DNA of 64,000 nt. Origin: Natronorubrum tibetense GA33 (GTDB lineage Archaea > Halobacteriota > Halobacteria > Halobacteriales > Natrialbaceae). Where the stretch lies: positions 813,133 to 877,132 of the forward strand of contig NZ_KB913017.1 of assembly GCF_000383975.1 (NCBI RefSeq). The letters run 5' to 3'. The notes under the pieces were generated by a model. The model was not told where the DNA came from and did not search any database. It saw nothing but the letters and a program-made list of their open reading frames with translations. The position numbers and the translations under genes are program-made. Positions 1-19,901 of the stretch are shown here, piece after piece (positions within the stretch are counted from its first letter, which is position 1; each line of letters begins with the position of its first letter).

Positions 1-2
1 CC

Positions 3-767
3 GAAGGGATCGAGAAGGAGAAAGACCGCAAAGAGATTCAGTCGGACGTCACGTCGGCGGTCCGTGAGTCTATCCATGAGACGGTCGAGGAGAACGACGC
101 GAAGGAGTCGGTTCAAGCGTTGGCCGGGGAGGTCTCCGAGGGGAGCGGTCTCGAGGGGGTCCTCGAGAGCGATGACGAACCCGAGAGCGAGGCCGAGAGT
201 GAAGATGACGCCGAGGAGTCCGAGAGTAAAGCGGACGATGCGAAATCGGCCGTCGCGTCGGCCGCTGAGGATGTCGGTGACGCTAGTGGAATCAGCGATA
301 TGCTCGAGGGCGACGAAGAGAGGGAGGAGTCGGACGACGGTGACTCCGAAGCGGAACCAGGAGACGAGGCTGAGAAAGAAGACGAGGGAGAAACGGACGA
401 AGCGGAAGATGAGGCCGAAGCAGACGAAACGGAAGACGAGGCTGAGGAAGAAGACGAGGCCGAAGCAGACGAAGAGCAAGCAGAGGAAGCCGATAGCGAG
501 GAGCAGACGGAGTCGGAATCCGAAGGCGAAGGGACTGGCGACGACTCTGAGCCGTCGGTGGAAGACATCGAGGATCTCCGACAGGACACCCTCGAGGACT
601 TCCTTGGCGTCATGTCCTACGAGGACCTCCAGTCGGTGGCCAAAGACGTCGACGTGAAGGCGAACCTTAGCCGCGAGGAGATGACGGAAGAGATCATCGC
701 GGCGGTGACGGACGAGGACGACGAGTCCAACGACGAGAACTCGGAAGCGGAAGCCGAAGCCACGTAA
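3..767 (+). CDS. Acidic low-complexity protein with C-terminal SAP/Rho-N-like motif (5' partial)
   Basis: The reading frame is open from the first bases of the window, so the true start lies upstream. The visible part begins with a helical stretch, passes through roughly 120 residues dominated by Glu, Asp, Ala and Ser, and ends with a compact segment encoded at about 560-700 (DLQSVAKDVDVKANLSREEM and flanks). That segment resembles the short two-helix SAP or Rho-N fold, a nucleic-acid-binding motif, although its acidity argues for caution. The next gene starts 90 bases downstream and is equally acidic, so the two may be co-transcribed. Family not recognised and function unknown. Confidence 0.75.
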   Translation, partial: EGIEKEKDRKEIQSDVTSAVRESIHETVEENDAKESVQALAGEVSEGSGLEGVLESDDEPESEAESEDDAEESESKADDAKSAVASAAEDVGDASGISDMLEGDEEREESDDGDSEAEPGDEAEKEDEGETDEAEDEAEADETEDEAEEEDEAEADEEQAEEADSEEQTESESEGEGTGDDSEPSVEDIEDLRQDTLEDFLGVMSYEDLQSVAKDVDVKANLSREEMTEEIIAAVTDEDDESNDENSEAEAEAT

Positions 768-857
768 CCGACCGTCGTCCTTCGGGCGTTCACTGTCCGA
801 GATCACCGGTACTGCGAACCGACGGCCGAAGCTGATCGACAGCGACAGAGAGACACT

Positions 858-1955
858 ATGAGCCAGGACCTCCACGAACGGGTGAGCGAGATACTGCACG
901 ACGCCGAAACAGCGAGCGGTTCGATGATCACCGACGACGAGTCGGACGGTCCCGATTTGCTCGAGACCGCCGAGCGGGCGAGCGACCTTCTCGAGTCGTC
1001 CGACCCGGACGATCTCCTCGAGGCGGTCGAACTGGACGAACTGCCGGACGGCAGCGAACCCGATTCGCTTCCGGCGGCCATCGCACAGGGTGACCCAGAA
1101 CAGGTCGAAGAACTACAGCGGCTGCTCCACCTCGGGAATCTCGCCGACGGGGACGACGGCGGTGCGCTCGAGGGTGCAGTCGGGGCGATACAGCAGTCGA
1201 TCGACGACGGAGAGGGCGAGGAGGCGGACGAGTCTGAGACGGCGGACGACGATGGGGGTGAACCCGACGATGTGCCGGAGGCTGACGAAGAGGCCGGCGA
1301 CGAGGACGCGGACGAGTCCGAGAGCGAAGGTGGAGTCGTCCAGAAGGCGGTCGAGTCGGTCACCGGCGACGGTGACAGCGACGCATCGGCTGACGGCGAG
1401 GAGGAAACCGAGTCCGAAAGTAAGAGTGGTGGGGCTCGAGAGGCCGTCGAATCGGTCGCCGAAGGCGCTAGTGAGGCACTCGGAGGGGAAGATACGGACG
1501 AGTCTGAAAGCGGAGACGAAGACGAGGGTGGTGTTCGAGAGACGGTCGAGTCGGTCGCCGACGGTGCCAGTGAGGCCCTCGGAAGTGAGGAGGAAGCGGA
1601 GACGGAATCAGACGACGCCGATGCGGGCGATTCCATCGGCGACAAGCTTCGATCGACGATGGAGTCGACGTTCTCGGACATCGGCGACGACCTCGAGGGG
1701 CTACAGGAGCGACTGCAGGATCGGTCTGCCAGTTCCGTCGGCGGCGAGACCGACGACGCAGACGATGCAGAAGCCGACGAGGAGGACGCGGAGGACGAAG
1801 ACGACGGACTGCTCGGATCGGGACTCGGCTCGGATCAGGATCGCGGGACGTCGTCCGGCGGGGCGACGCGCCACTCCACGATGGCGCCACCACCCTCGGA
1901 GCGCGCCGATATGAAAGGCACCACCCGTCACTCGACGATGCCCGACAAACACTGA
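858..1955 (+). CDS. Highly acidic repeat protein with twin TRHSTM C-terminal motifs
   Basis: A 365-residue protein starting at ATG 858. Residues 1-110 are helical and carry ordinary hydrophobic residues (LLETAERASDLLE, VEELQRLLHLGNLADG). Residues 115-330 are acidic low complexity with about three degenerate copies of a unit like AVESVAEGASEALG. The final 35 residues switch to basic and neutral composition and carry TRHSTM twice (337-342 and 356-361), separated by PPPSERADMKG. The conserved tail looks like a short linear binding motif or targeting tag. No catalytic motif is visible. Paired with the preceding acidic gene; function unknown. Confidence 0.8.
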   Translation: MSQDLHERVSEILHDAETASGSMITDDESDGPDLLETAERASDLLESSDPDDLLEAVELDELPDGSEPDSLPAAIAQGDPEQVEELQRLLHLGNLADGDDGGALEGAVGAIQQSIDDGEGEEADESETADDDGGEPDDVPEADEEAGDEDADESESEGGVVQKAVESVTGDGDSDASADGEEETESESKSGGAREAVESVAEGASEALGGEDTDESESGDEDEGGVRETVESVADGASEALGSEEEAETESDDADAGDSIGDKLRSTMESTFSDIGDDLEGLQERLQDRSASSVGGETDDADDAEADEEDAEDEDDGLLGSGLGSDQDRGTSSGGATRHSTMAPPPSERADMKGTTRHSTMPDKH

Positions 1956-2042
1956 TCGTCGCTCGAGTCATACCTCACACCGCCTGTAGCCGGCACAGGA
2001 CCGCTGAACGCTTATCCGGTATCCCGCCGTTTCCGTTCGTAT

Positions 2043-2519
2043 ATGAGACACGTTAGCGAGACGCAGGTCCGCGAGTGGCTGGACGAGACGGCGATTCGCG
2101 ACGTGACCGCCCACACCGACGAGGAGACGGCGTTCAATCTGCAGGTCGAACTCTCACAGCTTCCGGTCCACGTGATCAAGGAAGACGAGTGGGGTCCCGT
2201 CCGAATCGTCGGTCGGAGCGGCTTCGACACCGAGCGGACGAAAGACCTCCTCCGGGACGACCAGCGGCGAAGCGAACTCCTCGAGTATGTCGGGCCGATG
2301 CTGGCGGCGACGCCCGGCTTTTATACGTTTCTCGACTCGGCAGGGGAGTCCTGCCGGCTTCGACGTGCCGAGACCGTCCAGGTCGAGTACCGGCTCTACC
2401 CCGACGGGGCCAGCCAGCAGGCCCTGATGGACGCCGTGATGGCGATCGCGACGAGCATGCGCTACGTCAGAAACGTCGTTGCGGTCATTGGCGCTCGAGC
2501 GCCCGCAGACGACGAGTGA
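2043..2519 (+). CDS. Conserved haloarchaeal protein, possible secretion-chaperone-like fold
   Basis: A 158-residue soluble protein starting at ATG 2043. It reads as a mixed alpha/beta domain: an N-terminal helix (VREWLDETAI), paired strands (FNLQVELSQLPVHVI, PVRIVGRSGF), a helical middle and a C-terminal helix (QQALMDAVMAIATSMRYVRN). The helix-strand-helix plan and length recall the YbjN/type III-chaperone-like archaeal DUF2299 group, but that is a resemblance of pattern only. No catalytic residues, signal peptide or membrane segment. It is followed on the opposite strand by a small membrane protein. Confidence 0.75.
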   Translation: MRHVSETQVREWLDETAIRDVTAHTDEETAFNLQVELSQLPVHVIKEDEWGPVRIVGRSGFDTERTKDLLRDDQRRSELLEYVGPMLAATPGFYTFLDSAGESCRLRRAETVQVEYRLYPDGASQQALMDAVMAIATSMRYVRNVVAVIGARAPADDE

Positions 2520-2547
2520 CTGGTAACCTGAGTCTCGGCGGGTCGGA

Positions 2548-2766
2548 TCACTCGTCTTGCTTCCAGTCGTCGATGAAGAGCCGAACTCCCATGATAGGGA
2601 TGAACAGGAAAAACGCGAGCATCATCGCGCCGACGAACACGGCGTTGACGAATCGTGGAGAGAGTTCGAGCGAGACGGTCCCCCATGCGATGAGAAATCC
2701 GCCGCCAAGCGAGACAGCCACGAGGACGAGCAGATCCGTCCGATTTACCGGGACTTCCTCGGTCAT
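2548..2766 (-). CDS. Small two-helix membrane protein
   Basis: A 72-residue protein with two predicted membrane helices (LLVLVAVSLGGGFLIAWGTV and FVGAMMLAFFLFIPIMGV) and an acidic tail WKQDE. Two in-frame ATGs exist, at 2790 and 2766; the downstream one is chosen because it gives a typical short cytosolic N-terminus (MTEEVPVN) before the first helix. It converges with the preceding unknown gene and diverges from the universal stress protein gene. Function unknown. Confidence 0.65.
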   Translation of the reverse strand: MTEEVPVNRTDLLVLVAVSLGGGFLIAWGTVSLELSPRFVNAVFVGAMMLAFFLFIPIMGVRLFIDDWKQDE

Positions 2767-2883
2767 ACCTGCGCCTACGTCCCGCGACATATAGTGCTAT
2801 GAGGTTTCGTCCGAACCGCGCGGTCGCGCCGTCCTGTCCGCATCGGGCGTAGGGTTTTGGTTCAGCGGGGGGAACGGAAGGGC

Positions 2884-3324
2884 ATGTACGATTCGATCCT
2901 CGTCGCGACGGACGGGAGCGAGACGGCGACCGTAGCCGCCGAGCACGCGATCGAACTCGCTCGACAGGTCGACGGCACGGTGGACGTGATCGCCGTCCTC
3001 GAGAGCCGAACCGAGTACGATAACGCCATCGTCGATCCGGCCGAGGTCGATCGACGACGCCGGGAGCAGGCCACGGCTGCGCTCGAGGATATCTCGGAAT
3101 CGGCAGCCGATGCCGACGTCCCGGTCGAGACGGAGATCCGAACCGGCGTGCCGTCCGAGGAAATCGTCGCCTACGCCGACGAGCAGGGTATTGACGCGAT
3201 CGTTATCGGAGCGCGCGGCCGCTCGTCGCTCCGCGGCGCGCTCCTCGGAAGCACCGTCGACCGAGTCGTTAGAACCGCGGCGCAGCCGGTCCTGGTAGTT
3301 GGCGGAGCCGAACCCAGCCAGTAG
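2884..3324 (+). CDS. Universal stress protein (UspA family), ATP-binding type
   Basis: A 146-residue single Usp domain. The opening strand and loop MYDSILVATDGSE and the C-terminal G-2X-G-9X-G(S/T) nucleotide-binding signature (G109, G112, G122-S123 within GARGRSSLRGALLGS) are both intact, so this copy should bind ATP. The start is placed at ATG 2884 because the Usp fold begins immediately there. It is the first of three Usp genes flanking the acetate block, and the second follows after 59 bases. Likely role: an ATP-binding regulator or chaperone-like stress factor. Confidence 0.9.
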   Translation: MYDSILVATDGSETATVAAEHAIELARQVDGTVDVIAVLESRTEYDNAIVDPAEVDRRRREQATAALEDISESAADADVPVETEIRTGVPSEEIVAYADEQGIDAIVIGARGRSSLRGALLGSTVDRVVRTAAQPVLVVGGAEPSQ

Positions 3325-3352
3325 CGCCTCGACTCGTTGTCGGAGGCCGAAC

Positions 3353-3359
3353 ATTTACC
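3353..3359 (+). promoter_or_regulatory. TATA-like box for the second Usp gene
   Basis: An A/T-rich ATTTACC centred about 28 bases before the ATG at 3384 in an otherwise GC-rich gap. The spacing suits a haloarchaeal TATA element driving a leaderless transcript that starts at or next to the start codon. Confidence 0.4.
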
Positions 3360-3383
3360 TCGAGTGTCGTCCCAGATACTGGT

Positions 3384-3878
3384 ATGACGTTACTCGTTCC
3401 GTTCGATGCATCGCCGCTCGCGAGCAAAGCGCTCGAAAAAGCCTCGACGTTCGGCGACCTCCTCGACGAGGAACTCGTCGTGCTGACGGTGATCCCCGAC
3501 GACGCGGAGTACGCGAGAGATCGAGGATGGATTACGGAGGGAGAGCCGTTCACCCCCGACGCCATCGAAACGGGAATTCGGGACCGGGCCAGCGAGATTG
3601 CACCGGAAGCGACCTACCGGACGGAGCGCGTCAGCTCCGACGAACCCACGGCGACATCGACGACGAACGTGGTCCGAGAAATCCGCCGTATCGCCGCCGA
3701 AATCGGTGCCTCGGTGGTGTTCATCGGCTCGGAGAACGCCGGCTCGGTGATCGCCCCGCAGTCGAGCGTCGGCAACCCCGTCGCCAGCGACCACCGGTAC
3801 GACGTGTACGTCGTCCGCGAACCCGGCGAGGAGATCGATCCCGCGGAGCTGGCCGACATCGACTCGACGATCGAGTGA
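3384..3878 (+). CDS. UspA-like protein with degenerate nucleotide-binding loop
   Basis: A 164-residue protein opening with the Usp strand TLLVPFDASPLASKAL and a Rossmann-like alternation. The place where ATP-binding Usps carry G-2X-G-9X-G(S/T) reads FIGSENAGSVIAPQSSVGNP, so the glycine spacing is lost and ATP binding is unlikely. This matches the non-ATP-binding UspA subclass. It lies between an intact Usp gene and the first acetyl-CoA synthetase and probably belongs to the same regulatory neighbourhood. Confidence 0.85.
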   Translation: MTLLVPFDASPLASKALEKASTFGDLLDEELVVLTVIPDDAEYARDRGWITEGEPFTPDAIETGIRDRASEIAPEATYRTERVSSDEPTATSTTNVVREIRRIAAEIGASVVFIGSENAGSVIAPQSSVGNPVASDHRYDVYVVREPGEEIDPAELADIDSTIE

Positions 3879-4017
3879 GCAGTGCGGCGACTGGCGCATC
3901 CACCGAGAACCGTTCTCGGTCGAGAAAAAACGGCGGCCAGAAATCGGACGCTGTCAGCCAAGATCCACGGACGGGAGGAACGTTTATTCCCCTGACTGTC
4001 CTCGATCGGAACGTACT

Positions 4018-5994
<1,977 letters not shown>

Positions 5995-6103
5995 GTGGGC
6001 GGCGATCTCGTTTCGCTCTTTCAAATGAAGCGAAACGGCATAGCGGGGCGGTAACGGCGGAACAATAGCGTTCCGAGTTGTAATCGCCGGGAGCGTCGAT
6101 AGA

Positions 6104-6110
6104 ATTATAT
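6104..6110 (+). promoter_or_regulatory. TATA-like box for the BAT-like regulator
   Basis: ATTATAT is centred 28 bases upstream of the ATG at 6135. The spacing implies transcription starting at the start codon. The position also supports 6135, not the in-frame TTG at 6120, as the true start. Confidence 0.5.
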
Positions 6111-6134
6111 TCGCGGCACTTGAACGAGCGAACA

Positions 6135-8429
6135 ATGAGTCTCGAGGAGCCGGACTCGGCGGCGCTCTCGCGGAGCCAGTACGAGTCGCTCCTCGACGCC
6201 GCCGAAACCTACCGCGAGGCGCTCGTCGTCCGCCTCTGTGGCGACGTCGGGCTTCGGCCGACGGAGCTCGCAGAACTCACCGTCGACGACATTGAACAGG
6301 TCCGCATCGATCCCCCGCGGTACCTGATTCGGGTGCCGGCCGTCGACGACGGCTCCGGACGGACCGCCTATCTGCCGACCCAGGTCGAGCGAGAACTGCG
6401 CCGGTACGCCCGGAGCAACGGGCTGACGACCGACGACCGGATCTTTCCCGTCACGGCTCGTCGACTCCAGATGCTGGTATCTGAGGTCGCCGATCGGGCC
6501 GCCGAGTTCCTCGACCAGCCGACGCTCGCCAACGTCTCGACGAGCGACCTCCGGCAGTACTTCGCTCGAACCGCGCTCGTCGACCACGCGGTCAACCCGC
6601 GCGTCGTCAAGACCGTCGGCGGCTGGCGGAGTTTCGAGGCCCTCGAGCCCTACCTGCCCGAGCCAACCGACGCGGAGATCGTCGACGCCTTCGACGCCGC
6701 GGAACGACCGTCGGGACCCGGTCGCGGCGGATCGGGAGCCGAAACCGGGCCGATGGTGAGCGACGACAGCGTTATTCGCCTGCTGCTCGCCGCGAGCGAC
6801 CGGTATGCCCTCTTGCGACTCGACGCCGACGGCTACGTCGAACGCTGGAATCGAAGTGCGGCCGCCATGTTCGGCTACCGAGCCGGCGAGATCGTCGGCA
6901 CGCATATTTCGACGTTCTACACCGACGAGGCCGTCGACGACGGCGTTCCCGAGCGGACGCTCACCGCGGCGCTCGAGGACTCCGGCACCGAGACCGACGG
7001 CTGGCGCATTCACGAGGACGGCACGCGGTTCCGGGCGACCGAAGTCGTCTCGCCGCTACGAGACGAGCAGGGCCGCCACCGCGGGTTCGCCGTCTTCGTC
7101 CGCGACGCCTCGGCCGTCCACGAGGAGATCGAGTCGGTCCGAGCGCGCCGGGACGAACTCGAGGGCCGCTACGCGGTCGCGACGGCTCACCGTTCGGTCA
7201 CCCGATCGCTGTTCGAATCGACCGACCACGAGGAGATCGAGACGGAGACCTGCGCCGCGCTGGCGGACGGCCGAGCCTACGAATGCGCCTGGATCGACCG
7301 GGCAACGCACTCGAACCAGCGCCGGGAGTGGCGGGTCTCGAGCGGGATCGAACCCGACGCCGTCGACCGGCTGGTTCCGGAGCGGTGGCTCGAGGGATCG
7401 ACGACTGACGATCTCGTCGACAAACAGACGGGTGATGAGAGCGGAGCGGCGGGCGACGAGCGCGAACTGACGGGTGGCGAACGCGAGATGGCAGTCTCGA
7501 TCGCGACCGACGTTTCGCTCACGACCGAGCGCGACGACAGCGATGAGTCGAGCGACGAGCGAGGTGCTCTCGCACGCGTCCCGCTAGTCTACGGCGACAC
7601 GGTGTACGGAACCCTCTCCGTCGCAACGGAGCGTGCGGGGGCGTTCGACGCTGACGAACGACAGTGGCTCGAGACCATCGGCCGGCAGGTCGGCTACGCG
7701 ATCGCCGCGACCCGACGGCGGAACCTCCTGCTCTCGGACAACGTCGTCGAACTCGAGTTCGACTGTCGCGACGCCGACTCCGTCTTCGTCGCTGCCTCGC
7801 GGCGATTCGGCTGTCGGTTCGAACTCGACTCGCTCGTCCCGATCTCGGAGTCGACACAGCTGTACTACCTGCGTCTCGAGGGCGCATCGCCGGCCGACGT
7901 CTTCGAACTCGCCGCGGACGATCCCGGCGTCGCCGACTGTCGGCTGGTCGAAACCGACGAGGAGGGCTGGCGCGTCGAGTTCGTCGTCTGTGGCTCGTCC
8001 CCGGCGCTGACGCTCACCGAGTACGGCGTCACCGTCGTCGATGCCGTCACCGAAGCGGGCGTGACGACGCTGACCGCCGAGTGTGCGGCCGACGCGGACC
8101 TGCGGACCATCGTCACCGGGCTTCGGGCCGCGTTCCCCGACTCCGAACTGGTCGGCAAACGCGAGGTCGAACGGACGGTCCAGACCGCCCACGAGTTCCG
8201 CGAGGGGCTCGAAGACCGACTGACCGACCGCCAGGAGGCGTCGCTTCGGGCGGCGTACTCCGGTGGCTACTACGACTGGCCGCGAGAGAGTACGGCCGAG
8301 GAGATTGCCGACGCGATGGGGATCTCCTCACCGACGCTCCACAACCATCTGCGAAAGGGCCAACACGAACTTTTGCGAACGTTCTTCGACGACCCGACCG
8401 AAGACGACGGATCGGAAAACACCACGTAA
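6135..8429 (+). CDS. BAT-type HTH-10 regulator with PAS, GAF and N-terminal tyrosine-recombinase-like domain
   Basis: A 764-residue one-component sensor-regulator. Residues 1-180 follow the catalytic-domain plan of tyrosine recombinases: GLRPTEL with R41 in the first arginine position, SDLRQYFA with R140 in the second, then VGGW (162-164) and Y173. Both catalytic histidines of the family appear replaced (S137 and G163), so strand exchange is unlikely and a DNA-binding or dimerising role is inferred. A PAS domain (about 215-330) and a GAF domain (about 350-535) follow, then the bacterioopsin-activator domain and a C-terminal HTH-10 (from about 696, LTDRQEASLRAAY). Sitting between two acetyl-CoA synthetase genes, it probably regulates acetate metabolism. 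Confidence 0.88.
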   Translation: MSLEEPDSAALSRSQYESLLDAAETYREALVVRLCGDVGLRPTELAELTVDDIEQVRIDPPRYLIRVPAVDDGSGRTAYLPTQVERELRRYARSNGLTTDDRIFPVTARRLQMLVSEVADRAAEFLDQPTLANVSTSDLRQYFARTALVDHAVNPRVVKTVGGWRSFEALEPYLPEPTDAEIVDAFDAAERPSGPGRGGSGAETGPMVSDDSVIRLLLAASDRYALLRLDADGYVERWNRSAAAMFGYRAGEIVGTHISTFYTDEAVDDGVPERTLTAALEDSGTETDGWRIHEDGTRFRATEVVSPLRDEQGRHRGFAVFVRDASAVHEEIESVRARRDELEGRYAVATAHRSVTRSLFESTDHEEIETETCAALADGRAYECAWIDRATHSNQRREWRVSSGIEPDAVDRLVPERWLEGSTTDDLVDKQTGDESGAAGDERELTGGEREMAVSIATDVSLTTERDDSDESSDERGALARVPLVYGDTVYGTLSVATERAGAFDADERQWLETIGRQVGYAIAATRRRNLLLSDNVVELEFDCRDADSVFVAASRRFGCRFELDSLVPISESTQLYYLRLEGASPADVFELAADDPGVADCRLVETDEEGWRVEFVVCGSSPALTLTEYGVTVVDAVTEAGVTTLTAECAADADLRTIVTGLRAAFPDSELVGKREVERTVQTAHEFREGLEDRLTDRQEASLRAAYSGGYYDWPRESTAEEIADAMGISSPTLHNHLRKGQHELLRTFFDDPTEDDGSENTT

Positions 8430-8657
8430 CGGTCCGGCGTCGACTGCCGCCGAATCGACACTACACCTCTAGAGCGGTGCCCTCGCATCTACGTAGTCAC
8501 ACGTATTGTTTGCCCGACCGGCTCGCGGCTGGTCCGCGCCGCCGCGTCGCGCGGCCGCCCAGCGGGGGATCGACCCCCAATATAACCGACTATAGTATCC
8601 TAATACAGTCAATACACCCTAGTTATTCGACCTGATTTTGCACAGCTAGATGCCGGC

Positions 8658-8666
8658 TTTACTATA
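8658..8666 (+). promoter_or_regulatory. TATA-like box in an AT-rich leader before acs paralogue 2
   Basis: TTTACTATA lies about 31 bases before the ATG at 8693, within an unusually AT-rich 110-base stretch (8580-8690) that contrasts with the GC-rich surroundings. The gap from 8430 to 8692 holds no gene; its AT-rich part is the best candidate here for a regulator-controlled promoter. Confidence 0.45.
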
Positions 8667-8692
8667 CCGGTTGTCTATTGAGTTGGTGTATC

Positions 8693-10669
8693 ATGTCACA
8701 GGAGGATGCCAACCTCGAGGCCCGTCTCGAGGAACAGGAGACGTTCGAGCCCCCCGAGTCGTTCGTCGAACAGGCGAACGTCTCGGACCCGGGGATTTAC
8801 GAAGAGTTCGAAGAGAACTGGCCCGACTGCTGGGAGCGGGCCGCCGACCTGCTGTCGTGGGAGGAGGAGTACGACACCGTTCTCGACGACGACGACGCGC
8901 CGTTCTACGAGTGGTTCACGAACGGGCGGCTGAACGCCTCGTACAACTGTATCGACCGCCACGTCGAGGGCGACCGCGCCGACGAGGTCGCGATCGAGTG
9001 GGAAGGCGAACTCGGCGAGACGCGCAGCTACACCTATAACGAACTGCTCGAGGAAGTCGAAGAGTTCGCTGCGACGCTCCGTGAGCTCGGCGTCGAGGAG
9101 GACGACATCGTCACCCTCTACCTGCCGATGATCCCGGAGCTCCCGATCGCGATGCTCGCGTGTGCCCGAATCGGTGCCCCACACGCGGTCGTCTTCGCGG
9201 GCTTCTCCGCGGACGCGCTCGCGACGCGAATGAACGCCGGCGAGAGTGAGTATCTCGTCACCTGCGACGGCTACTACCGGCGCGGGGACGCGCTCGATCA
9301 CATCTCGAAGGCCAACGAGGGCCTCGAAGGCGTCGACCACGAGGTTTCGGACGTCGTGGTCGTCGACCGACTGGGCGACGATCTCGAGCACGATCTCGCG
9401 GACAACCAGCACGACTACGACGACCTCGTCGCCGAACAGGCAGGCGCGAGCGTGGATCCGGTCTCGAGAGACGCCGAGGACATGCTGTTCCTGATGTACA
9501 CGTCGGGAACGACCGGCAAGCCGAAGGGCGTCAAACACACGACCGGTGGCTATCTGGCTTACACCGCCTGGACGAGCCACGCCGTGCTCGATGTCGAGCC
9601 CGACGACACCTACTGGTGTGCGGCCGACATCGGCTGGATTACCGGCCACTCCTACATCGTCTACGGGCCGCTCGCGCTCGGGACCACGACGATGATGTAC
9701 GAGGGGACGCCGGACTATCCCGAGAAGGACCGAATGTGGGAACTCGTCGAGAAGAATTCGGTCGACATCTTCTACACCGCGCCGACGGCCATCCGCGCGT
9801 TCATGAAGTGGGGAGAGCAGTACCCCGCCGAACACGACCTATCGTCGCTCCGCTTGCTCGGAACCGTCGGTGAGCCGATCAACCCGCGGGCGTGGAAGTG
9901 GTACTACAAGCACATCGGCGGCGAGAACTGCCCCATCGTCGACACCTGGTGGCAGACCGAAACTGGCGGCATGATGATCACGACGCTTCCGGGGATCAAC
10001 GAGATGAAACCCGGCTCCGCCGGACCGCCGCTGCCGGGAATCGACGCCCGGATCGTCGACGCACAGGGTGAGGAGATCTCGGCCGGTGAGGCCGGTTACG
10101 TCACGATCAACAACCCGTGGCCCGGGATGCTCCGGACGCTGTACAACAACGACGAGCGGTTCATCAACGAGTACTGGTCGGAGTACTCCGACGAGGAGGC
10201 CGACGAGTGGGTCTACTTCCCTGAAGACGGCGCGAAGATCGACGAAGACGGCTTCATCACCGTCCTCGGCCGGGTCGACGACGTGATCAACGTCTCCGGC
10301 CACCGGCTCGGAACGATGGAGATCGAGTCGGCCGTCGTCGGCGTTGAAGGAATCGCCGAAGCCGCCGTCGTCGGCGGCGACCACGAGGTCAAAGGCGAGG
10401 CCGTCTACGTCTACGCCATTTCCGAAGACGGCTACGAAACCGGCGACGAACTCGAGGAACGCGTCATGCAGGGCGTACTGGATTCGATCGGCCCGATCGC
10501 GAAACCGGAGGAGATCATCTTCACGCCGGAACTGCCGAAGACGCGCTCGGGCAAAATCATGCGGCGGTTGCTGGAGAACATCGCGAGCGGCGACGAGTTG
10601 GGTAACACCTCCACGCTGCGGAATCCGGAGGTCGTCGACGAGATCGCCGAACAGGTCGACATCGACTGA
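8693..10669 (+). CDS. acs: Acetyl-CoA synthetase (AMP-forming), paralogue 2
   Basis: A 658-residue Acs with fully canonical motifs: YTSGTTGKPKG, DTWWQTETGG, NVSGHRLGT and the acetylatable lysine in TRSGKIMRR near the C-terminus. Start ATG 8693 gives MSQEDANLEARLEEQ before the conserved PPESFVEQANVSDPGIY segment shared with paralogue 1. Downstream at short distance are the two symporter genes, so uptake and activation of acetate are probably transcribed together. With standard motifs throughout, this is likely the main acetate-activating enzyme. Confidence 0.95.
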   Translation: MSQEDANLEARLEEQETFEPPESFVEQANVSDPGIYEEFEENWPDCWERAADLLSWEEEYDTVLDDDDAPFYEWFTNGRLNASYNCIDRHVEGDRADEVAIEWEGELGETRSYTYNELLEEVEEFAATLRELGVEEDDIVTLYLPMIPELPIAMLACARIGAPHAVVFAGFSADALATRMNAGESEYLVTCDGYYRRGDALDHISKANEGLEGVDHEVSDVVVVDRLGDDLEHDLADNQHDYDDLVAEQAGASVDPVSRDAEDMLFLMYTSGTTGKPKGVKHTTGGYLAYTAWTSHAVLDVEPDDTYWCAADIGWITGHSYIVYGPLALGTTTMMYEGTPDYPEKDRMWELVEKNSVDIFYTAPTAIRAFMKWGEQYPAEHDLSSLRLLGTVGEPINPRAWKWYYKHIGGENCPIVDTWWQTETGGMMITTLPGINEMKPGSAGPPLPGIDARIVDAQGEEISAGEAGYVTINNPWPGMLRTLYNNDERFINEYWSEYSDEEADEWVYFPEDGAKIDEDGFITVLGRVDDVINVSGHRLGTMEIESAVVGVEGIAEAAVVGGDHEVKGEAVYVYAISEDGYETGDELEERVMQGVLDSIGPIAKPEEIIFTPELPKTRSGKIMRRLLENIASGDELGNTSTLRNPEVVDEIAEQVDID

Positions 10670-10738
10670 GTCGACCGACTTCTTTCACACGAAACCACAG
10701 TCACGAAAACACAGACAGCGACACACGGACAACACCAC

Positions 10739-11146
10739 ATGTCAGACAATAGCTCTCAAGGTTCGGAGCCGACCGCCGAAACGGACGGCGGTGTCACGAC
10801 GGAAGCGTACCTCGATAAGGAAATAAATATATTCAAGCCAGCGACGCCGTTCATGCGAGATCATCTGCGGGTGATCTGGCTCTCGTTTGTCGCATGGATA
10901 CTCGTCGTCTTCGGCCCGACGACGGCGACGCTGCTGGCGCCGGATCTCATGACCGGGACGACGATTCTGGGCGGGTTTCCGCTGCACTTCTTCCTCGCAG
11001 CGATCTTTACGCCCCTCGCGGCCTTGCTGCTCTCGGTCGCCTACGCCATGCAGCGCGACCGCCTCGACAGCAAGTACGACATCTCTCACGACGAGGAAAC
11101 CGAGTCCGGCAGCGCCGTCGCCGCGGACGGAGGTGAGTCCGAATGA
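10739..11146 (+). CDS. Small subunit of sodium:solute symporter (DUF4212-like)
   Basis: A 135-residue membrane protein with a long acidic N-terminus, a short motif before the first helix (FMRDHLRVIWLSFVAWILVV) and a second helix (FFLAAIFTPLAALLLSVAYA). This layout matches the small companion subunit found directly upstream of acetate-permease-like SSS transporters. Its stop codon overlaps the start of the symporter gene (ATGA at 11143-11146), so the two are translationally coupled. Confidence 0.85.
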   Translation: MSDNSSQGSEPTAETDGGVTTEAYLDKEINIFKPATPFMRDHLRVIWLSFVAWILVVFGPTTATLLAPDLMTGTTILGGFPLHFFLAAIFTPLAALLLSVAYAMQRDRLDSKYDISHDEETESGSAVAADGGESE

Positions 11147-12807
11147 TCGAGGCGGTCGATCCGGTGATCCTCCAGGAAACTGCCCTCGACGTCGGTGAGT
11201 TCAAACTGGTGCCGGCGCTCACAGTCGCCGCGATGCTGGCGCTGTTCCTCGGCGTCGGCTACTTTTTCCGGGTCGCCGCGGTTGACGAGCTGTGGGTCGC
11301 CGGACGATCCATCGGCTCGATCGAGAACGGGATGGCGATCGGTGCCAACTGGATGAGCGCCGCGTCGTACCTCGGTGTCGCGGCGCTCGTCGCGACGGCG
11401 GGCTACTTCGGCCTGGCGTACGTCGTCGGCTGGACGACGGGCTACTTCATCCTGCTCATCTTCCTGGCCGCCCAGTTCCGCCGATTCGGGAAGTACACGG
11501 CTCCCGACTTCGTCGGTGACCGGTTCTACTCCGACTGGGCGCGCGGGATCGCGGCGTTCACCACGCTCGCGATTGCGTTCACCTACGCGATCGGCCAGGC
11601 AAGCGGGATGGGACTGATGGCCCAGTACATCTTCGGCATCTCCTATGAGGCCGGCGTCATCCTGCTGATGGCCGTCACCATCGGCTACGTCGCCCTCTCG
11701 GGCATGCTGGGGACGACGAAGAATATGGCCATCCAGTACGTCATCCTCATCGTCGCCTTTACCCTCGGCCTGTACGCCACCGGCTGGACCCAGGGTTGGT
11801 CCACTGCGCTGCCGTACTTAGAAGCCGGGCCGCAGGTCGCCGAGGCGGCGAGCATCGAGGCCCAGTTCGTCGAGCCGTTCGCGAACGCGAGCTACTACGC
11901 CTGGATCGCCCTGGCGTTCAGTCTGATCGTGGGGACCTGTGGACTGCCACACGTCCTCGTGCGGTTCTACACGGTCGACAACGAGCGCACCGCGCGCTGG
12001 TCGACCGTCTGGGGCCTGTTCTTCATCTGCCTGCTGTACTGGGGAACGGCCACCTACGCCGCGTTCGGTGGACTCCTCTACGACAGTGAGGTTAGCGGTG
12101 GCGAGGGCTTCACCGGCATGGCCGGCTCCGAGGCCGACGCACTGGTCGTGTTGACCGCCCAACTCGCCGACCTGCCAACGTGGCTCGTCGGACTGGTCGC
12201 CGCCGGTGCCGTCGCCGCGGCGCTCGCGACGACGGCTGGGCTGTTCATCACCGCCTCTTCGGCGGCAGCCCACGACATCTACACGAACCTCTACAAGGAG
12301 GACGCGACCCAGCGCGAGCAGATGCTCGTCGGCCGCGCGACGATCGTCGGAATCGGTATCCTCGTCGCACTCATCGGCCTGAACCCGCCGGCGCTGATCG
12401 GCGAACTCGTCGCGATGTCCTTCGCGATCGCCGGCACCGTCTTCTTCCCCGTGTTCTTCCTCGGACTCTGGTGGGAGAACACGACTCGAGAGGGTGCCCT
12501 CTCGGGGATGATCGTCGGCATCCTGATCTCGTTCGGCGCGATCCTGAACGATACCGCGATCCCGATGTACACTGGCGTCGAAGAGGCGGTTCTCCCCGGA
12601 CTCGCGACCTACCTTCCGGGGACCTCTTCGGCACTCATTGGCGTTCCGGTCGTCTTTGCGACCATCATCGTCGTCTCGGTGCTCACGGACGAGCCCCCAG
12701 AAGACATTAAACGCCTCGTTCGACAGTGCCACAGCCCAGAACCGATGAGCCAAATGGAATCGGCCGAAGACGCCGCCGCTGACGGCGGCGCACCAGCAGA
12801 CGACTAA
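11143..12807 (+). CDS. Sodium:solute symporter, acetate/organic-acid permease type
   Basis: A 554-residue polytopic protein of the SSS family with about 13 hydrophobic segments. Family hallmarks include the early ELWVAGRSIGSIENGMAIGA and NWMSAASYLG segments and the central GTCGLPHVLVRFYTV, close to ActP-type permeases. Overlap with the small-subunit gene and adjacency to acetyl-CoA synthetase support short-chain carboxylate uptake driven by sodium. The C-terminal tail is acidic and cytosolic. Substrate assignment is by context. Confidence 0.9.
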   Translation: MIEAVDPVILQETALDVGEFKLVPALTVAAMLALFLGVGYFFRVAAVDELWVAGRSIGSIENGMAIGANWMSAASYLGVAALVATAGYFGLAYVVGWTTGYFILLIFLAAQFRRFGKYTAPDFVGDRFYSDWARGIAAFTTLAIAFTYAIGQASGMGLMAQYIFGISYEAGVILLMAVTIGYVALSGMLGTTKNMAIQYVILIVAFTLGLYATGWTQGWSTALPYLEAGPQVAEAASIEAQFVEPFANASYYAWIALAFSLIVGTCGLPHVLVRFYTVDNERTARWSTVWGLFFICLLYWGTATYAAFGGLLYDSEVSGGEGFTGMAGSEADALVVLTAQLADLPTWLVGLVAAGAVAAALATTAGLFITASSAAAHDIYTNLYKEDATQREQMLVGRATIVGIGILVALIGLNPPALIGELVAMSFAIAGTVFFPVFFLGLWWENTTREGALSGMIVGILISFGAILNDTAIPMYTGVEEAVLPGLATYLPGTSSALIGVPVVFATIIVVSVLTDEPPEDIKRLVRQCHSPEPMSQMESAEDAAADGGAPADD

Positions 12808-12809
12808 CC

Positions 12810-13268
12810 ATGTACGACACGATACTCGTTCCCACTGACGGCAGCGACGTTGCAGCGAACGCGGTCGATCACGCGATCGACCTCGCCGAAAAGTACGACG
12901 CCGTCGTCCACGCGCTGTACGTCATCGACACCAGCGCGATGGACATCAGCCTCGGCACCGAACAGGTCGACCGCATCCGACAGGGCAAGTACGACGAGAT
13001 GCCCGAGATACAGGAGCGCGCCAACAAGGCGACCGGTAACGTCGCCAGCCAGGCGCGCGAACGCGGTCTCGAGGTGACCGAATCGGTCATCGCCGGCCAA
13101 CCGCACAGTCGGATCGCGGACTACGCCGACGACCACGACGTCGACCTCATCGTCATGGGGTCGGCCGGTCGCGGCGGCGTCAAACGCGTCCTGCTCGGCA
13201 GCGTCGCCGAGCGAACGCTGCGGACGACCGACATTCCGGTCCTCGTGGTCGACATCCGAGAGGACTGA
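12810..13268 (+). CDS. Universal stress protein (UspA family)
   Basis: A 152-residue Usp domain starting two bases after the symporter stop, so it is part of that operon. MYDTILVPTDGSDV opens the fold, and the ATP-binding signature GSAGRGGVKRVLLGSV keeps the exact G-2X-G-9X-GS spacing. Usp genes next to transporters often act as ATP-sensing partners, and a role in modulating the acetate permease is a reasonable inference. Confidence 0.92.
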   Translation: MYDTILVPTDGSDVAANAVDHAIDLAEKYDAVVHALYVIDTSAMDISLGTEQVDRIRQGKYDEMPEIQERANKATGNVASQARERGLEVTESVIAGQPHSRIADYADDHDVDLIVMGSAGRGGVKRVLLGSVAERTLRTTDIPVLVVDIRED

Positions 13269-13380
13269 GACGCGGCCCCCCTACGGTGCCGCGACTCGAG
13301 TCGGGGTCCACCTCCTGTGACCGCTCGACTCGCTCTTTTGGTGCAGCGCACTCGTTTCAGGAGCGGTGAGTCCGCCGCGA

Positions 13381-13596
13381 TTAGCGTTCCGAGGTCGCCA
13401 ACTCGAGGCTCATAAAGAAGAGAAAGTAGGCGGCGATTCCGGCGAGCATGAACAGGTAGTAGGCCCAGTCGGGGCCCTGGAGGACGCGAAAGATGAGATC
13501 GACGACCGTCACCCAGGCGATCGCGAACACCAGATCGACGAGCAGTCCCCAGCGGTCCTCGCGGGCCTCCTGGATCCACTCGCGAACGCTCGTCAT
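13381..13596 (-). CDS. Small two-helix membrane protein
   Basis: A 71-residue protein starting at ATG 13596 (MTSVREWIQEAREDRWG). Two hydrophobic helices (LVDLVFAIAWVTVVDLIFRV and YYLFMLAGIAAYFLFF) are joined by LQGPDWA. The frame stays open further upstream as a longer ORF, but only this part has membrane-protein composition. No known family recognised. Confidence 0.7.
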   Translation of the reverse strand: MTSVREWIQEAREDRWGLLVDLVFAIAWVTVVDLIFRVLQGPDWAYYLFMLAGIAAYFLFFMSLELATSER

Positions 13597-13685
13597 CGCC
13601 CGGTCACCCACCGGCGTGCGAGATCGGTCATTGCGTGATCCTTTCGCAGGGGACCGAAAAAGCTTATCGACGACCGGAGCGCCAG

Positions 13686-14168
13686 TTACTCGTCCCAGTA
13701 GTCCACGTCGTCGTCGATTCGGTAGTAGCCGTCGAACGTCCGTTCGTCGCGGCCGCCCGGCGGTGAGCCGACGAAGACGCCGAACTTCTCCATCTCGGGG
13801 TAGACGGTGATATCTGGTTCGTTCATCGTCGAGACCATCAGGTATCGGAGCGACTCCTCGCTGTCGTTGACGATTCGATGGCCGCCGCTTACGTCCGCCG
13901 GGAGGGTGACGAAGTCGCCGGCCGTCAGCGACGCCTCGCCGTCCGCAGTTCGGAGCAGCCCCGTCCCCGAGAGGACGTACAACGCCTCCTCGTTGGCCGT
14001 GTGGTAGTGATACGGCCACGAGCGCATCCCCGGCGGGAGTTCGTACAGGCTACAGCCGAGTTCGTCGGCGTCGACGGCGCTCGAGAGCTCCTTGCGCCGG
14101 AACGCGGTGTCTTTAGGATTGGGGTCGTACTCGGTCCACGCGAGGTCGGACTCGTTTACCTTCTCCAT
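13686..14168 (-). CDS. Cupin-domain protein
   Basis: A 160-residue protein with a single conserved cupin barrel. The metal-binding motif 1 reads YHYHTANEEALYVLSGTG (H54, H56 and a glutamate at 60 or 61), and a motif 2 histidine is at H97 (SGGHRIVN). The C-terminus DDVDYWDE follows a GYYRIDDD segment typical of haloarchaeal cupins. Start ATG 14168 is chosen because the upstream extension lacks protein-like composition. Substrate unknown: it could be a sugar-binding, dioxygenase-like or isomerase-type cupin. Confidence 0.88.
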   Translation of the reverse strand: MEKVNESDLAWTEYDPNPKDTAFRRKELSSAVDADELGCSLYELPPGMRSWPYHYHTANEEALYVLSGTGLLRTADGEASLTAGDFVTLPADVSGGHRIVNDSEESLRYLMVSTMNEPDITVYPEMEKFGVFVGSPPGGRDERTFDGYYRIDDDVDYWDE

Positions 14169-14378
14169 ACTGTAACACGACAAGAGTTCAAATATATAAG
14201 ATTTTGCCGGAACCGACGCGGGCGTCGAACGTTCGGCACGTGTGGTAACCGGTTTTACTGCGGCCAACACCACGAGCCTGCAAACGGACCCGCAACGACG
14301 CCACGGTTGCCGGTTCGCTCGAGGTGCGGGCGGCCCGAAAACGAAACCCCCTAACCTCGCCCGGGAGTCCACTCGAGC

Positions 14379-14927
14379 ATGCACGACGACAGCGAGGTCG
14401 CCGTCCTCCGACTCGGCCACCGGCCCGGCCGAGACGAGCGGATGACGACCCACGTCGGCCTAACCGCGCGGGCGCTGGGTGCCGACCGCGTCTGGGTCCC
14501 CGACAACGCCGGCCAGTCAAGAGATACCGTCGCGGACATCACCGACCGATTCGGGGGTCCCTTCGAGGTCGATTTGACCGACTCGCCGCAGGGAATCATC
14601 CGCAACTGGGAGGGACGGGTCGTCCACCTCACGATGTACGGCGAGCAGGTACAGGACGTCGAGCGCGACATTCGAGCGGCCCACCGCGAGGACGGCGACC
14701 CCATCCTCGTCGTCGTCGGGGCCGAGAAGGTCCCGTTCGATGTCTACGAGGAAGCCGACTGGAACGTCGGCGTCACCAACCAGCCCCACTCCGAGGTCGC
14801 CGGCCTGGCCGTCTTTCTCGACCGGCTGTTCGAAGGTCGCGAACTCGAGCGCGAGTGGGAGGGCGCGGACCGAGAAGTGATTCCGATGGAAACGGGCAAG
14901 CGCGTCGAGTCGACGGACGAGGAGTAA
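14379..14927 (+). CDS. trm56: tRNA (cytidine(56)-2'-O)-methyltransferase (aTrm56)
   Basis: A 182-residue SPOUT-class methyltransferase specific to Archaea. The N-terminal VLRLGHRPGRDERMTTHVG and the knot-forming region around PILVVVGAEKVPFDVYE, followed by NVGVTNQPHSEVAGLAVFLD, are hallmarks of the family, which methylates the 2'-OH of C56 in the T-loop of tRNAs. It starts at ATG 14379 and converges with the following membrane protein gene. Confidence 0.92.
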   Translation: MHDDSEVAVLRLGHRPGRDERMTTHVGLTARALGADRVWVPDNAGQSRDTVADITDRFGGPFEVDLTDSPQGIIRNWEGRVVHLTMYGEQVQDVERDIRAAHREDGDPILVVVGAEKVPFDVYEEADWNVGVTNQPHSEVAGLAVFLDRLFEGRELEREWEGADREVIPMETGKRVESTDEE

Positions 14928-14937
14928 CGAACCGGAC

Positions 14938-15606
14938 TCAACCGGACGGCCGGAACAGACGAAACGGGCGGAGCACTCGCCCGCCGACCGTCCGAACGAC
15001 GTGTCGAACCATCGCGACGGCCCCCATCTCGTTCTCGTCGATCACGTAGCCGTTGCCGACCCGTTCGATCGGCCCCGACTCGCCGTGAGTCTCGAGGAGG
15101 CGCTCGAAGTCGGATTCGGTCAGCCCCGTCCGCGACTGGATCTCGTCGGCGGTGAGCGGTCGATCGGCCTCGCGAAGCGTCTCGACCAGCCAGCGGTTGT
15201 GCTCCCCGATCAGGAGCAGTTCGTCGTTCGAGATGTCCGCCTCGTCCTCGCTCCCCTCGTCAGGAGGATTGCCGTTTCGCCACACGTCGATCCCGTCGAG
15301 TACGATCCAGGCACCGACGACGGTGAGCGCCGGGCCGAGCCAGGAGCCGTCGGTCAGGACACCGTAGCCGCCGGCGGCGAGGACGATCGAGCCGAGGAGG
15401 ACGGTCGCGAGCGCGGGTTCGCTGTCGAGTCCCGCGGCATCAGCGACCGCGCGAACGAGCGGTGCGCCGACGACGATTCCGAGGCCGAGCGCGATCGCGG
15501 TGGACTCGAGGCCGAGCGCGTAGAGCACGCCGAGGAGGACGACCGCACCGACGAGATCCGTCGTATCGATTTCCTCGCGAAGTCGTGCTGCGAACTGGTG
15601 GCCCAT
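14938..15606 (-). CDS. Membrane-anchored winged-helix protein
   Basis: A 222-residue protein. The N-terminal half holds three to four hydrophobic segments (VGAVVLLGVLYALGL, AIALGLGIVVGAPLV, ATVLLGSIVLAAGGYGV, LGPALTVVGAWIVLDGI). The C-terminal half is soluble and resembles a winged helix (LLLIGEHNRWLVETLREA, LTADEIQSRTGLTESDFERL, GPIERVGNGYVID). The predicted topology places the DNA-binding-like domain after the membrane part. It may be a membrane-tethered regulator; ligand and target unknown. Confidence 0.75.
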   Translation of the reverse strand: MGHQFAARLREEIDTTDLVGAVVLLGVLYALGLESTAIALGLGIVVGAPLVRAVADAAGLDSEPALATVLLGSIVLAAGGYGVLTDGSWLGPALTVVGAWIVLDGIDVWRNGNPPDEGSEDEADISNDELLLIGEHNRWLVETLREADRPLTADEIQSRTGLTESDFERLLETHGESGPIERVGNGYVIDENEMGAVAMVRHVVRTVGGRVLRPFRLFRPSG

Positions 15607-15811
15607 TTGTAGTATTGTAGATACTACCGCTCTTAACGCTATCGAGGAAACGTGGCCGTCCCCGTTCTCGAGAATCGATGTGGAGCGGTTCTCCCTATCG
15701 ATCGGGAGATCTGCTCGCCGGTCGGCCCGCAGTACCAGCGACCCGAATGGATCGCGGCCCGAACGACCGACGAAGGGCTAGCTTTTCAGCGCCTGCGAAC
15801 GCAGCAGGCAT

Positions 15812-16045
15812 ATGGACTCAGACTCGCCGCTGCCCAGGACCCCGATCGAGTGGTTCATGCTCGCCCCGGCGCTCGCCGTCCTCAACGGAGTCGTCCTGCT
15901 CGCGACCGGCCACACGCTTTTCGAATCGATCGCGATGGGCGTCTTCTACGGGTTCGCGATGGCGTTCGTCGTCTTGCTTCTCGCCGTCACCTGGAACGTG
16001 CTCCGGAACAGAAACGATGCGTCGGATGCGGATTCGGCGGAGTAA
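15812..16045 (+). CDS. Small two-helix membrane protein
   Basis: A 77-residue protein with two predicted helices (WFMLAPALAVLNGVVLLATG and FYGFAMAFVVLLLAVTWNVL) and a charged C-terminus ending DASDADSAE. The start at ATG 15812 follows a GC-rich 205-base gap. Function not recognised. Confidence 0.65.
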   Translation: MDSDSPLPRTPIEWFMLAPALAVLNGVVLLATGHTLFESIAMGVFYGFAMAFVVLLLAVTWNVLRNRNDASDADSAE

Positions 16046-16083
16046 CGGTACAGTCGCCTGAGGTCGGCTGGCGAGGGACCACC

Positions 16084-17076
16084 TCACCGCATTCGATAGT
16101 ATCGCACGCCGTCCTCGAGATCGTACGTTACGGTGTCCCGACTCTCGAGCGTCCCGAGCGCCCCCATCGTATCCAACACGGGGGCCATGTAGCGAACGCT
16201 ACCGGCCCGCTCCTCCGCGACCGACAGCGGCGTCGCGGGTTCGATTGCGGCGAGCGCCGCTTCGGTCTCCGCGACCAGGCTATTGAGTCGCTCTCGCGTG
16301 AGGCCGACGACCCGATGGGGATCCTCGAACGTCGGCCCGTGGCCGGGGAAGGCGTGGGTCGCCGTCGTCTCCAGCAGCCGATCCATCGCGTCGTAGTATC
16401 GGTCGACGCCGTCGTAGGTGTCCCAGTCGATACCGGCGTGGAACGTCCCGGCGCGGAAGGGCTCGATCAGGGCGTCGCCGGAGAGGAGGACGGTCGCCCC
16501 TTCGAGTGCCGTCTCGAAACTCAGGTGGTTCAGTTCGTGACCCGGCGTCGCCAGCGATCGAAACTCGCGGTCACCGACCGAAAACGTGGCGTTCGGGTCG
16601 ATCGGCTCGGTACTCGCCGGGTCGAGCAGGTCGACGTCGCGCCGCAGCGACTCGAGTTCCTCGTCGACGATCTCTTCGCCCTTTTCGTCGGCGTACCCCA
16701 CCGACCGCGCGGTTTCGCGTACCGTCTCGCGGACCGTCTCGGGGTCCCGCTCGAGTCGCTCGAGGGCCGCCCGCGGCGCGTGAATCGTCGCGCCGGCGTC
16801 CCGCAGCGTGCCGGCCTGTCCGAGATGGTCGCTGTGGGCGTGTGTGACGAGCACGTGGTCGATATCGCGAACGGCGTAGCCGGCGCGTTCGAGTTCGTTC
16901 TCGAGTTCGGATTCGCCAGCATCGGTCGGCGTGCCGGCGTCGACCAGGATCGGTTCGGGCCCGTCGATCACGTACGCGGCGACGTGTTTCGGGGGCCACG
17001 GCACGTCGAACTCGAGGCGATGAATCGTCGAAAAAACCCGATCGCTCCGACAGGCGCCTTCGGCGTCGGTATCCAT
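16084..17076 (-). CDS. MBL-fold metallo-hydrolase
   Basis: A 330-residue metallo-beta-lactamase-superfamily protein. Metal ligands are visible in order: THAHSDHLG (H79, H81, D83, H84), H180 in LATPGHELNH, D201 in LLSGDALIE, and H246 in FPGHGPTFEDP. The C-terminal part (ESRDTVTYDLEDGVRYY) resembles the winged-helix tail of the LACTB2/glyoxalase II-like branch. Likely a thioester, lactone or nuclease-type hydrolase; the substrate cannot be told from the sequence. Confidence 0.9.
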   Translation of the reverse strand: MDTDAEGACRSDRVFSTIHRLEFDVPWPPKHVAAYVIDGPEPILVDAGTPTDAGESELENELERAGYAVRDIDHVLVTHAHSDHLGQAGTLRDAGATIHAPRAALERLERDPETVRETVRETARSVGYADEKGEEIVDEELESLRRDVDLLDPASTEPIDPNATFSVGDREFRSLATPGHELNHLSFETALEGATVLLSGDALIEPFRAGTFHAGIDWDTYDGVDRYYDAMDRLLETTATHAFPGHGPTFEDPHRVVGLTRERLNSLVAETEAALAAIEPATPLSVAEERAGSVRYMAPVLDTMGALGTLESRDTVTYDLEDGVRYYRMR

Positions 17077-17139
17077 TGACTCGAAGACGGCGGTCCGGAA
17101 AGGTGAATGTTACTCTCTATATAAGAAGTAGCGCGAGTA

Positions 17140-17161
17140 CCCCGACCCACCGTGGTCGGGG
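17140..17161 (+). repeat. Left-end hairpin of the TnpB element
   Basis: An 8-base perfect stem CCCCGACC / GGTCGGGG with the loop CACCGT, about 54 bases before the transposase start. IS200/IS605-type elements carry subterminal imperfect palindromes rather than terminal inverted repeats, and this one is well placed to mark the left end. Confidence 0.6.
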
Positions 17162-17214
17162 GTGAAGCGCGTCTAACCCGTACTTTATCAATCACTGAAC
17201 CGTACCCGAATACA

Positions 17215-18555: not shown

Positions 18556-18566
18556 ACACGGACGCC

Positions 18567-18586
18567 CCGCGCCACCGTGCGCGCGG
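18567..18586 (+). repeat. Right-end hairpin of the TnpB element
   Basis: CCGCGC pairs with GCGCGG around the loop CACCGTGC. The loop shares CACCGT with the left-end palindrome, which supports both belonging to the same element. Confidence 0.5.
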
Positions 18587-18603
18587 TACTTCACCGCAAG
18601 ACG

Positions 18604-18631
18604 GCACGCCGGGTCGAACCGGGCGCCGTGC
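18604..18631 (+). repeat. Second hairpin downstream of tnpB
   Basis: GCACG and CGTGC bracket an inner CCGG...CCGG pairing. It may be the outermost right-end structure or a transcription stop between tnpB and tfe. Confidence 0.35.
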
Positions 18632-18649
18632 GCGGAGCAGTTGACAAGC

Positions 18650-18656
18650 TTTAATG
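18650..18656 (+). promoter_or_regulatory. TATA-like box for tfe
   Basis: TTTAATG is centred 28 bases before the tfe ATG at 18681, consistent with a leaderless tfe mRNA and with the mobile element not having removed the promoter. Confidence 0.45.
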
Positions 18657-18680
18657 GCTCCATGCCGTTACACGTAGGTA

Positions 18681-19900: not shown

Positions 19901-19901
19901 T

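Follow-up and report, generated by a model that had tools for sequence, protein, structure and literature searches.

The product of one gene in Natronorubrum tibetense GA33 begins like a tyrosine recombinase (TR) and ends like a transcription regulator. The question is how a DNA-cutting enzyme came to be part of a sensor protein and what it could do there. The window, meaning the whole stretch of DNA analysed, is 64,000 nucleotides long. An open frame from 6120 (TTG) or 6135 (ATG) to 8429 on the plus strand was confirmed in the ORF list. ATG 6135 is most likely the better start, as judged from the sequence, because the conserved reading frame begins there and TTG 6120 falls within a conserved operator-like dyad. 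Residues are numbered from this ATG.

6135 to 8429, plus strand: TR-PAS-GAF-BAT-HTH_10 regulator, 764 amino acids from the ATG (ORF, Pfam, alignment, full-length model)
6171 to 6704, plus strand: TR catalytic domain, residues 13-190 (Pfam, profile search, AlphaFold2, Foldseek)
6255, 6543, 6552, 6624 and 6651, plus strand: TR-domain codons of R41, S137, R140, W164 and Y173, respectively
6804 to 7106, plus strand: PAS domain, residues about 224-324 (Pfam, full-length model)
7110 to 7217, plus strand: predicted long linker helix, residues 326-361 (full-length model)
7227 to 7733, plus strand: GAF domain, residues about 365-533 (Pfam for the C-terminal part only, extent from the model)
7740 to 8174, plus strand: BAT domain (PF15915), residues about 536-680 (Pfam, full-length model)
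8220 to 8375, plus strand: HTH_10 DNA-binding domain (PF04967), residues about 696-747 (Pfam, full-length model)

Pfam placed Phage_integrase at residues 11-173, followed by PAS, GAF, BAT and HTH_10. HTH_10 scored 67.1 bits (cut-off 23.1) and BAT 170.9 bits (cut-off 25.8), both above the Pfam thresholds. The order in the full-length model was TR 13-190, PAS 224-324, helix 326-361, GAF 365-533, BAT 536-680 and HTH 685-751; at a pTM of 0.53 the domain boundaries of this model are usable but the mutual arrangement of the domains is not. No structured-RNA family scored above its own cut-off in an Rfam scan of window positions 1-20000.

Recombinase Domain and Active Site

Residues 13-190 were confirmed as a TR catalytic domain (PF00589/DNA_BRE_C) and the match is not due to chance. 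A sequence-only reading of this DNA had proposed the fold for residues 1-180, and Pfam, profile search, AlphaFold2 and Foldseek all bore it out. The domain alone matched Phage_integrase (PF00589) at E=1.2e-9 with 38.6 bits against the Pfam cut-off of 27.1. The match to the NCBIfam archaeal XerA model was 3e-13, short of its equivalog cut-off. When searched against the PDB, a profile from 46 relatives matched the archaeal XerA-type structure 4a8e at 4.7e-18 and a second archaeal XerA structure at 1e-9. The AlphaFold2 model of the domain had a pLDDT of 91.4. The suggested comparison of folds was made with this model in Foldseek, and it matched TRs including XerA, Cre and XerH. The search gave 57 PDB chains at E<=0.001; the 50 matches listed were all TRs, headed by XerA and followed by Cre, integron integrase, Tn1549 Int and XerH. 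The TR profile also gave weak HMM hits at the HTH end of the protein, which were put down to chance.

R41, S137, R140, G163 and Y173 lay where the sequence-only reading had located them, and alignment agreed that the two catalytic arginines, R41 and R140, are kept. The distance from R140 to Y173, described as near the XerD spacing, is indeed 33 residues; it is 32 in XerD, which implies a one-residue insertion. G163 had been equated with XerD H270, and this pairing was wrong, since both profile alignments pair W164 with the XerA histidine. The claim that both catalytic histidines are replaced holds for S137, which is non-catalytic, but not for the second position, where W164 is an accepted H/W-box residue. 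W164 and Y173 are nine residues apart. The same H/W-to-Tyr spacing occurs in XerD (H270-Y279) and Cre (W315-Y324). No lysine was present in the hairpin at residues 53-80, so the catalytic beta-hairpin lysine is missing, a loss that had gone unmentioned. The active site is degenerate as claimed, with the HxxR histidine (S137) and the beta-hairpin lysine as its losses in the window protein, while the H/W box is intact and Y173 is present. The protein shares with XerA, XerD and Cre the catalytic-domain fold, R41, R140, W164 (H/W box as in Cre) and Y173. It differs from them in having no core-binding domain, catalytic lysine or catalytic histidine and in being fused to a sensor-regulator.

Distribution and Relatives

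The same fusion was found across Halobacteria when haloarchaea were searched for it. TR-domain matches were present in 220 of the 292 Halobacteria genomes searched; among the matches listed most were in frames of more than 500 amino acids (fusions) and some were standalone proteins of about 200 amino acids. In a phylum-wide search strong matches were confined to the class Halobacteria, with weak matches in short frames only outside it, as ordinary TRs would give. Genomes of Natronorubrum, Natrinema and related genera had close orthologues at 25 loci. Rather than a local curiosity, the fusion is an old family of Halobacteria, class-wide and essentially single-copy. One genome (G234) had two acs-regulator-acs clusters on different contigs (L096 and L097), one of them strongly diverged (acs identity 58-59%). 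Locus L083 was rejected as a standalone TR. It is a fused gene with acs adjoining, at about 5888-7800, that is broken by a frameshift or a sequencing error just after the TR domain.

The architecture is already published as the archaeal TR family fam30-04, Phage_integrase with BAT and HTH_10 and in some members GAF_2 (Badel et al. 2021, PMC8371274). The window protein matches it and was assigned to the family by its combination of Pfam domains; the survey defines membership by an identity of 30% or more to listed proteins across 60% of the length (PMC8371274). The portion of the survey text that bears on fam30-04 lists the Pfam combination only, without the active-site decay, acs context, dyads or standalone sister clade reported here (PMC8371274). 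No paper on the active site, context, DNA sites or function of the fusion was found in the open-access literature. The decayed active site, the fixed gene neighborhood and the paired sites seem undescribed.

The nearest relatives of the domain that were found are the standalone haloarchaeal TRs. This is a large family (L072-L082, L162, L163 and L189-L238) of about 200 amino acids with no core-binding domain and with two palindromes upstream of the gene, a feature shared with the fused regulator. They differ from the window protein in their complete pentad R-K-HxxR-W-Y, in lacking sensor and HTH_10 domains and in having no acs neighbor. They are frequent on haloarchaeal plasmids, such as H. salinarum pHS4 and Har. 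marismortui pNG200, where they are annotated as 'site-specific integrase'. A multimer-resolution or self-control module is a possible role. Phage records searched with a standalone relative yielded a single match, at 31%. A 147-bp 'mupB' resistance gene is recorded in PLSDB at L162 positions 3057-3203 on H. salinarum pHS4; this is most likely a false annotation.

Decay of the active site extends across the fused copies. Among 40 aligned sequences R140 and W164 were each kept in 40 and R41 in 37. The HxxR histidine (H137) was present in 2 of the 40 and absent in 38. The nucleophile Y173 was present in 30, with F, H, L, S or D in the remaining 10. No fused copy (0/40) had a lysine aligned with the hairpin lysines of the standalone proteins. 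R41-H137-R140-W164-Y173 was complete in 6 of 6 standalone TRs, and the standalone alignment (8 rows) had lysines in GKD...GGKPRD. Simple text patterns for residue states missed the HxxR of L225 and the R of L191, both standalone.

In a maximum-likelihood tree the standalone rows formed one side of a branch with support of 100/100. The labels standalone and fused required two changes for three groups, the minimum possible. The tree is not securely rooted, its bootstrap had not settled and the sole outgroup row is very long. The direction would be from active standalone proteins to fused and dead ones, because regaining a full active site is implausible. Most simply, a plasmid-type TR consisting of the catalytic domain only would have been fused to a PAS/GAF-BAT-HTH_10 regulator once, in an ancestor within Halobacteria. 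The sequence-only reading had spoken of an integrase recruited into a sensor. Tree and residue states support this, the nearest relatives found being intact standalone TRs, many of them plasmid-borne. Its suggestion that the TR domain is a DNA-binding or oligomerising arm remains likely.

Gene Neighborhood

The regulator is flanked by two genes of the acs (acyl-CoA synthetase) type.

4018 to 5994, plus strand: acsUP, upstream acs-type gene, AMP-forming acyl-CoA synthetase, 658 amino acids (ORF; orthologue at all evaluable fused loci)
8693 to 10669, plus strand: acsDOWN, second acs-type gene (ATG 8693 by conservation; frame open from TTG 8678)

At every evaluable fused locus the regulator lay between two same-strand acs genes. 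The sample comprised 24 close relatives and 28 loci from other genera and families; one more locus ends upstream at a contig edge. Among 20 genomes without a TR match, from 14 genera, 19 had one close acs gene and no such regulator adjoining. In the exception (L143, 3603-5654) the single acs gene has nearby a Bat-like PAS/GAF/BAT/HTH_10 protein that lacks a TR domain and differs in its N-terminal architecture. The regulator and the second acs gene tend to be gained and lost together, since fused loci have two acs genes and genomes without the fusion have one.

A phage integrase or provirus at the locus was rejected, given the position of the gene between acs genes at all evaluable loci. Canonical Bat, the bop activator, was also rejected as the identity of the protein, the neighbors being acs and not bop/brp and the TR domain being extra. 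The protein has in common with Bat, NarO and DmsR a C-terminal HTH_10 and a one-component design, and with Bat also BAT, GAF and PAS domains. The published domain descriptions found for Bat give PAS, GAF and HTH and no TR domain, and the window gene lies with acs rather than with bop/brp or denitrification genes. By its context the gene appears to encode a dedicated regulator of the acs pair and not Bat itself.

Upstream Sites

Paired dyads and two promoter-like elements were found around the regulator.

6010 to 6036, no strand: dyad P1, GTTTCG-N15-CGAAAC, with an exact TTCG-N15-CGAA core at 6012 to 6034 (alignment, counts)
6097 to 6113, plus strand: putative promoter, TATA-like element CGATAGAATTATATTCG (conserved across Natrialbaceae)
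6110 to 6132, no strand: dyad P2, TTCG-N15-CGAA, between the TATA-like element and the ATG (alignment, counts)
8636 to 8664, plus strand: TTTTGCACAGCTAGA-N8-TTTACTA-type element before acsDOWN, candidate activator site plus TATA

TTCG-N(k)-CGAA was counted in the gap between acsUP and the regulator at 54 loci. The count peaked at k=15 (57 sites) and k=16 (38 sites), and no other k from 0 to 29 had more than 8. The 95 sites at k=15-16 compare with 0.26 expected from mononucleotide shuffles. No N15/N16 peak appeared in the two other intergenic regions, 5' of acsUP and ahead of acsDOWN. At least one exact dyad was present at 51 of the 54 loci and two at 43. Many of these loci are close relatives; the 28 distant ones outside that set carry the independent weight, and 25 of them had one exact dyad or more. 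L087, L095 and L105, the three loci of the 54 without one, had near matches by eye. The spacing was N15 in all 25 Natrialbaceae and N16 in most other families. The dyads were palindromic and invariant at the outer four to five bases only. The order P1-promoter-P2 was identical in all loci read. The centres of P1 and P2 were 95-98 bp apart in the close-relative set, 158 bp in L111 and 77-141 bp elsewhere. Helical phasing of these distances looks non-random with kinship ignored and was not used as evidence.

Within the window TTCG-N15-CGAA occurred 7 times against 3.5 expected, which is not significant, and the case rests on conservation. Upstream of 20 HTH_10-only genes of the same genome there was no TTCG-N15/16-CGAA peak (N15 0, N16 1). 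TTTCG-N15/16-CGAAA was found 0 times in 207 kb of acs loci without the regulator. Across the whole genome (4.9 Mb) TTTCG-N15-CGAAA occurred at 12 places, compared to 2 for a reversed control pattern. Eleven of the places are outside the locus and may include further targets; no regulon is claimed.

Standalone TR genes carried clade-specific palindromes at two places, one about -112 to -143 and the other immediately in front of the start codon. Among 17 non-redundant genes 59% reached 8/9 arm pairs at about -155 to -85 compared to 5% of shuffles, and the second palindrome, at -50 to 0, showed weak enrichment only; palindromes were in excess in no other upstream interval. The arms are longer than those of the fused dyads and their sequence varies between clades. 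One standalone gene carries TTCG-N17-CGAA. The conserved paired dyads are the first evidence bearing on a DNA-binding or oligomerising role of the TR domain.

A different element was conserved 5' of acsDOWN in Natrialbaceae, TTTTGYACAnCTAGA followed by a TTTACTA-type TATA box. It was found within two mismatches at 8 of the 28 distant loci versus 0.12 expected. It was absent from acs loci without the regulator and seen only at fused-regulator loci. A similar ACTAG core is part of the bop upstream activator sequence.

Proposed Mechanism and Alternatives

The gene product is probably a one-component transcription regulator dedicated to the flanking acs (acyl-CoA/acetyl-CoA synthetase) pair, with the dead TR as its DNA-reading and dimerising arm at its own promoter, HTH_10 at acsDOWN and GAF/PAS for sensing. 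The TR domain would have lost DNA cutting and kept dimerisation on palindromic sites, and would serve as an autoregulatory DNA-reading arm. A TR dimer at P2 should block transcription of the regulator, because P2 lies past the TATA-like element and ahead of the ATG. A complex of P1 and P2 could loop about 97 bp. GAF and PAS would sense a metabolic or redox signal. HTH_10 would act on the conserved element just 5' of the acsDOWN TATA box, as Bat does upstream of bop. In a more elaborate form the protein would be a sequence-specific repressor gated by a signal. Its TR dimers, bound at P1 and P2, would synapse as in recombination but without cutting, looping about 97 bp round their own promoter, HTH_10 would switch acsDOWN, the ligand state of GAF/PAS would decide and the paired-site control region would have been brought by the plasmid recombinase. 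This fuller version is unlikely.

It is also possible, if somewhat doubtful, that HTH_10 reads the TTCG dyads in autoregulation and that the TR domain serves as a scaffold for dimerisation or ligand binding, held off the DNA. The TTCG/CGAA half-sites resemble the haloarchaeal denitrification motif CGAAYATDKTYG, which is associated with Bat-like regulators and may be read by HTH_10 regulators (PMC11218638), and the dyads could therefore be HTH_10 sites. With half-sites 19-20 bp apart two HTH domains would sit on the same side of the DNA, and a TR domain without catalytic residues may have lost DNA binding too. The short arms of the fused dyads compared to the longer, clade-specific standalone palindromes, and the weak P2 signal of the latter, may also count against DNA reading by the TR domain. 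However, HTH_10-only genes lack the TTCG-N15/16-CGAA peak, though a common site is not expected of all of them. A similar palindrome pair, similarly placed, precedes the genes of the standalone TRs, and these proteins lack HTH_10. R140 and GGW164, at the DNA-facing active site of the fold, are kept in essentially all fused copies, and the different element at acsDOWN suits HTH_10.

Two further explanations leave the dyads without a regulatory TR domain or make the protein an enzyme. It is quite improbable that the dyads are a terminator or processing hairpin of acsUP or the site of an unrelated regulator, with the TR domain as a passenger. P1 does lie directly after the acsUP stop codon, but there are two copies and not one, the second at the regulator start codon; within a clade the spacing never changes whereas the inner sequence does, and acs loci without the regulator have no such dyads. 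Regulation by rearrangement, with a still active recombinase inverting, excising or topologically relaxing DNA at P1/P2, is hardly credible. Missing lysine (40/40), histidine (38/40) and tyrosine (10/40) in the fused sequences argue against it, as does the unvarying P1-promoter-P2 order in all loci read, even though the window protein has R41, R140, W164 and Y173 and P1/P2 form a pair of sites.

If the preferred reading, a dead TR as the DNA-reading arm of an acs-dedicated regulator, is true, prokaryotes would have a clear example of a recombinase converted into a domain of a transcription regulator, with presumed still-active plasmid relatives in the same organisms. TR genes have also been turned to host use in the Crypton-derived domesticated TRs of eukaryotes (Kojima and Jurka 2011, PMC3212892). 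Those cases are independent and eukaryotic, and the parallel drawn is one of function. A literature text search found no described regulator of acetate/acyl-CoA activation in haloarchaea, and the protein would be a candidate for that role. The route from cutting enzyme to regulator would become testable, because intact and decayed forms, DNA sites and presumed targets can be read in many genomes.
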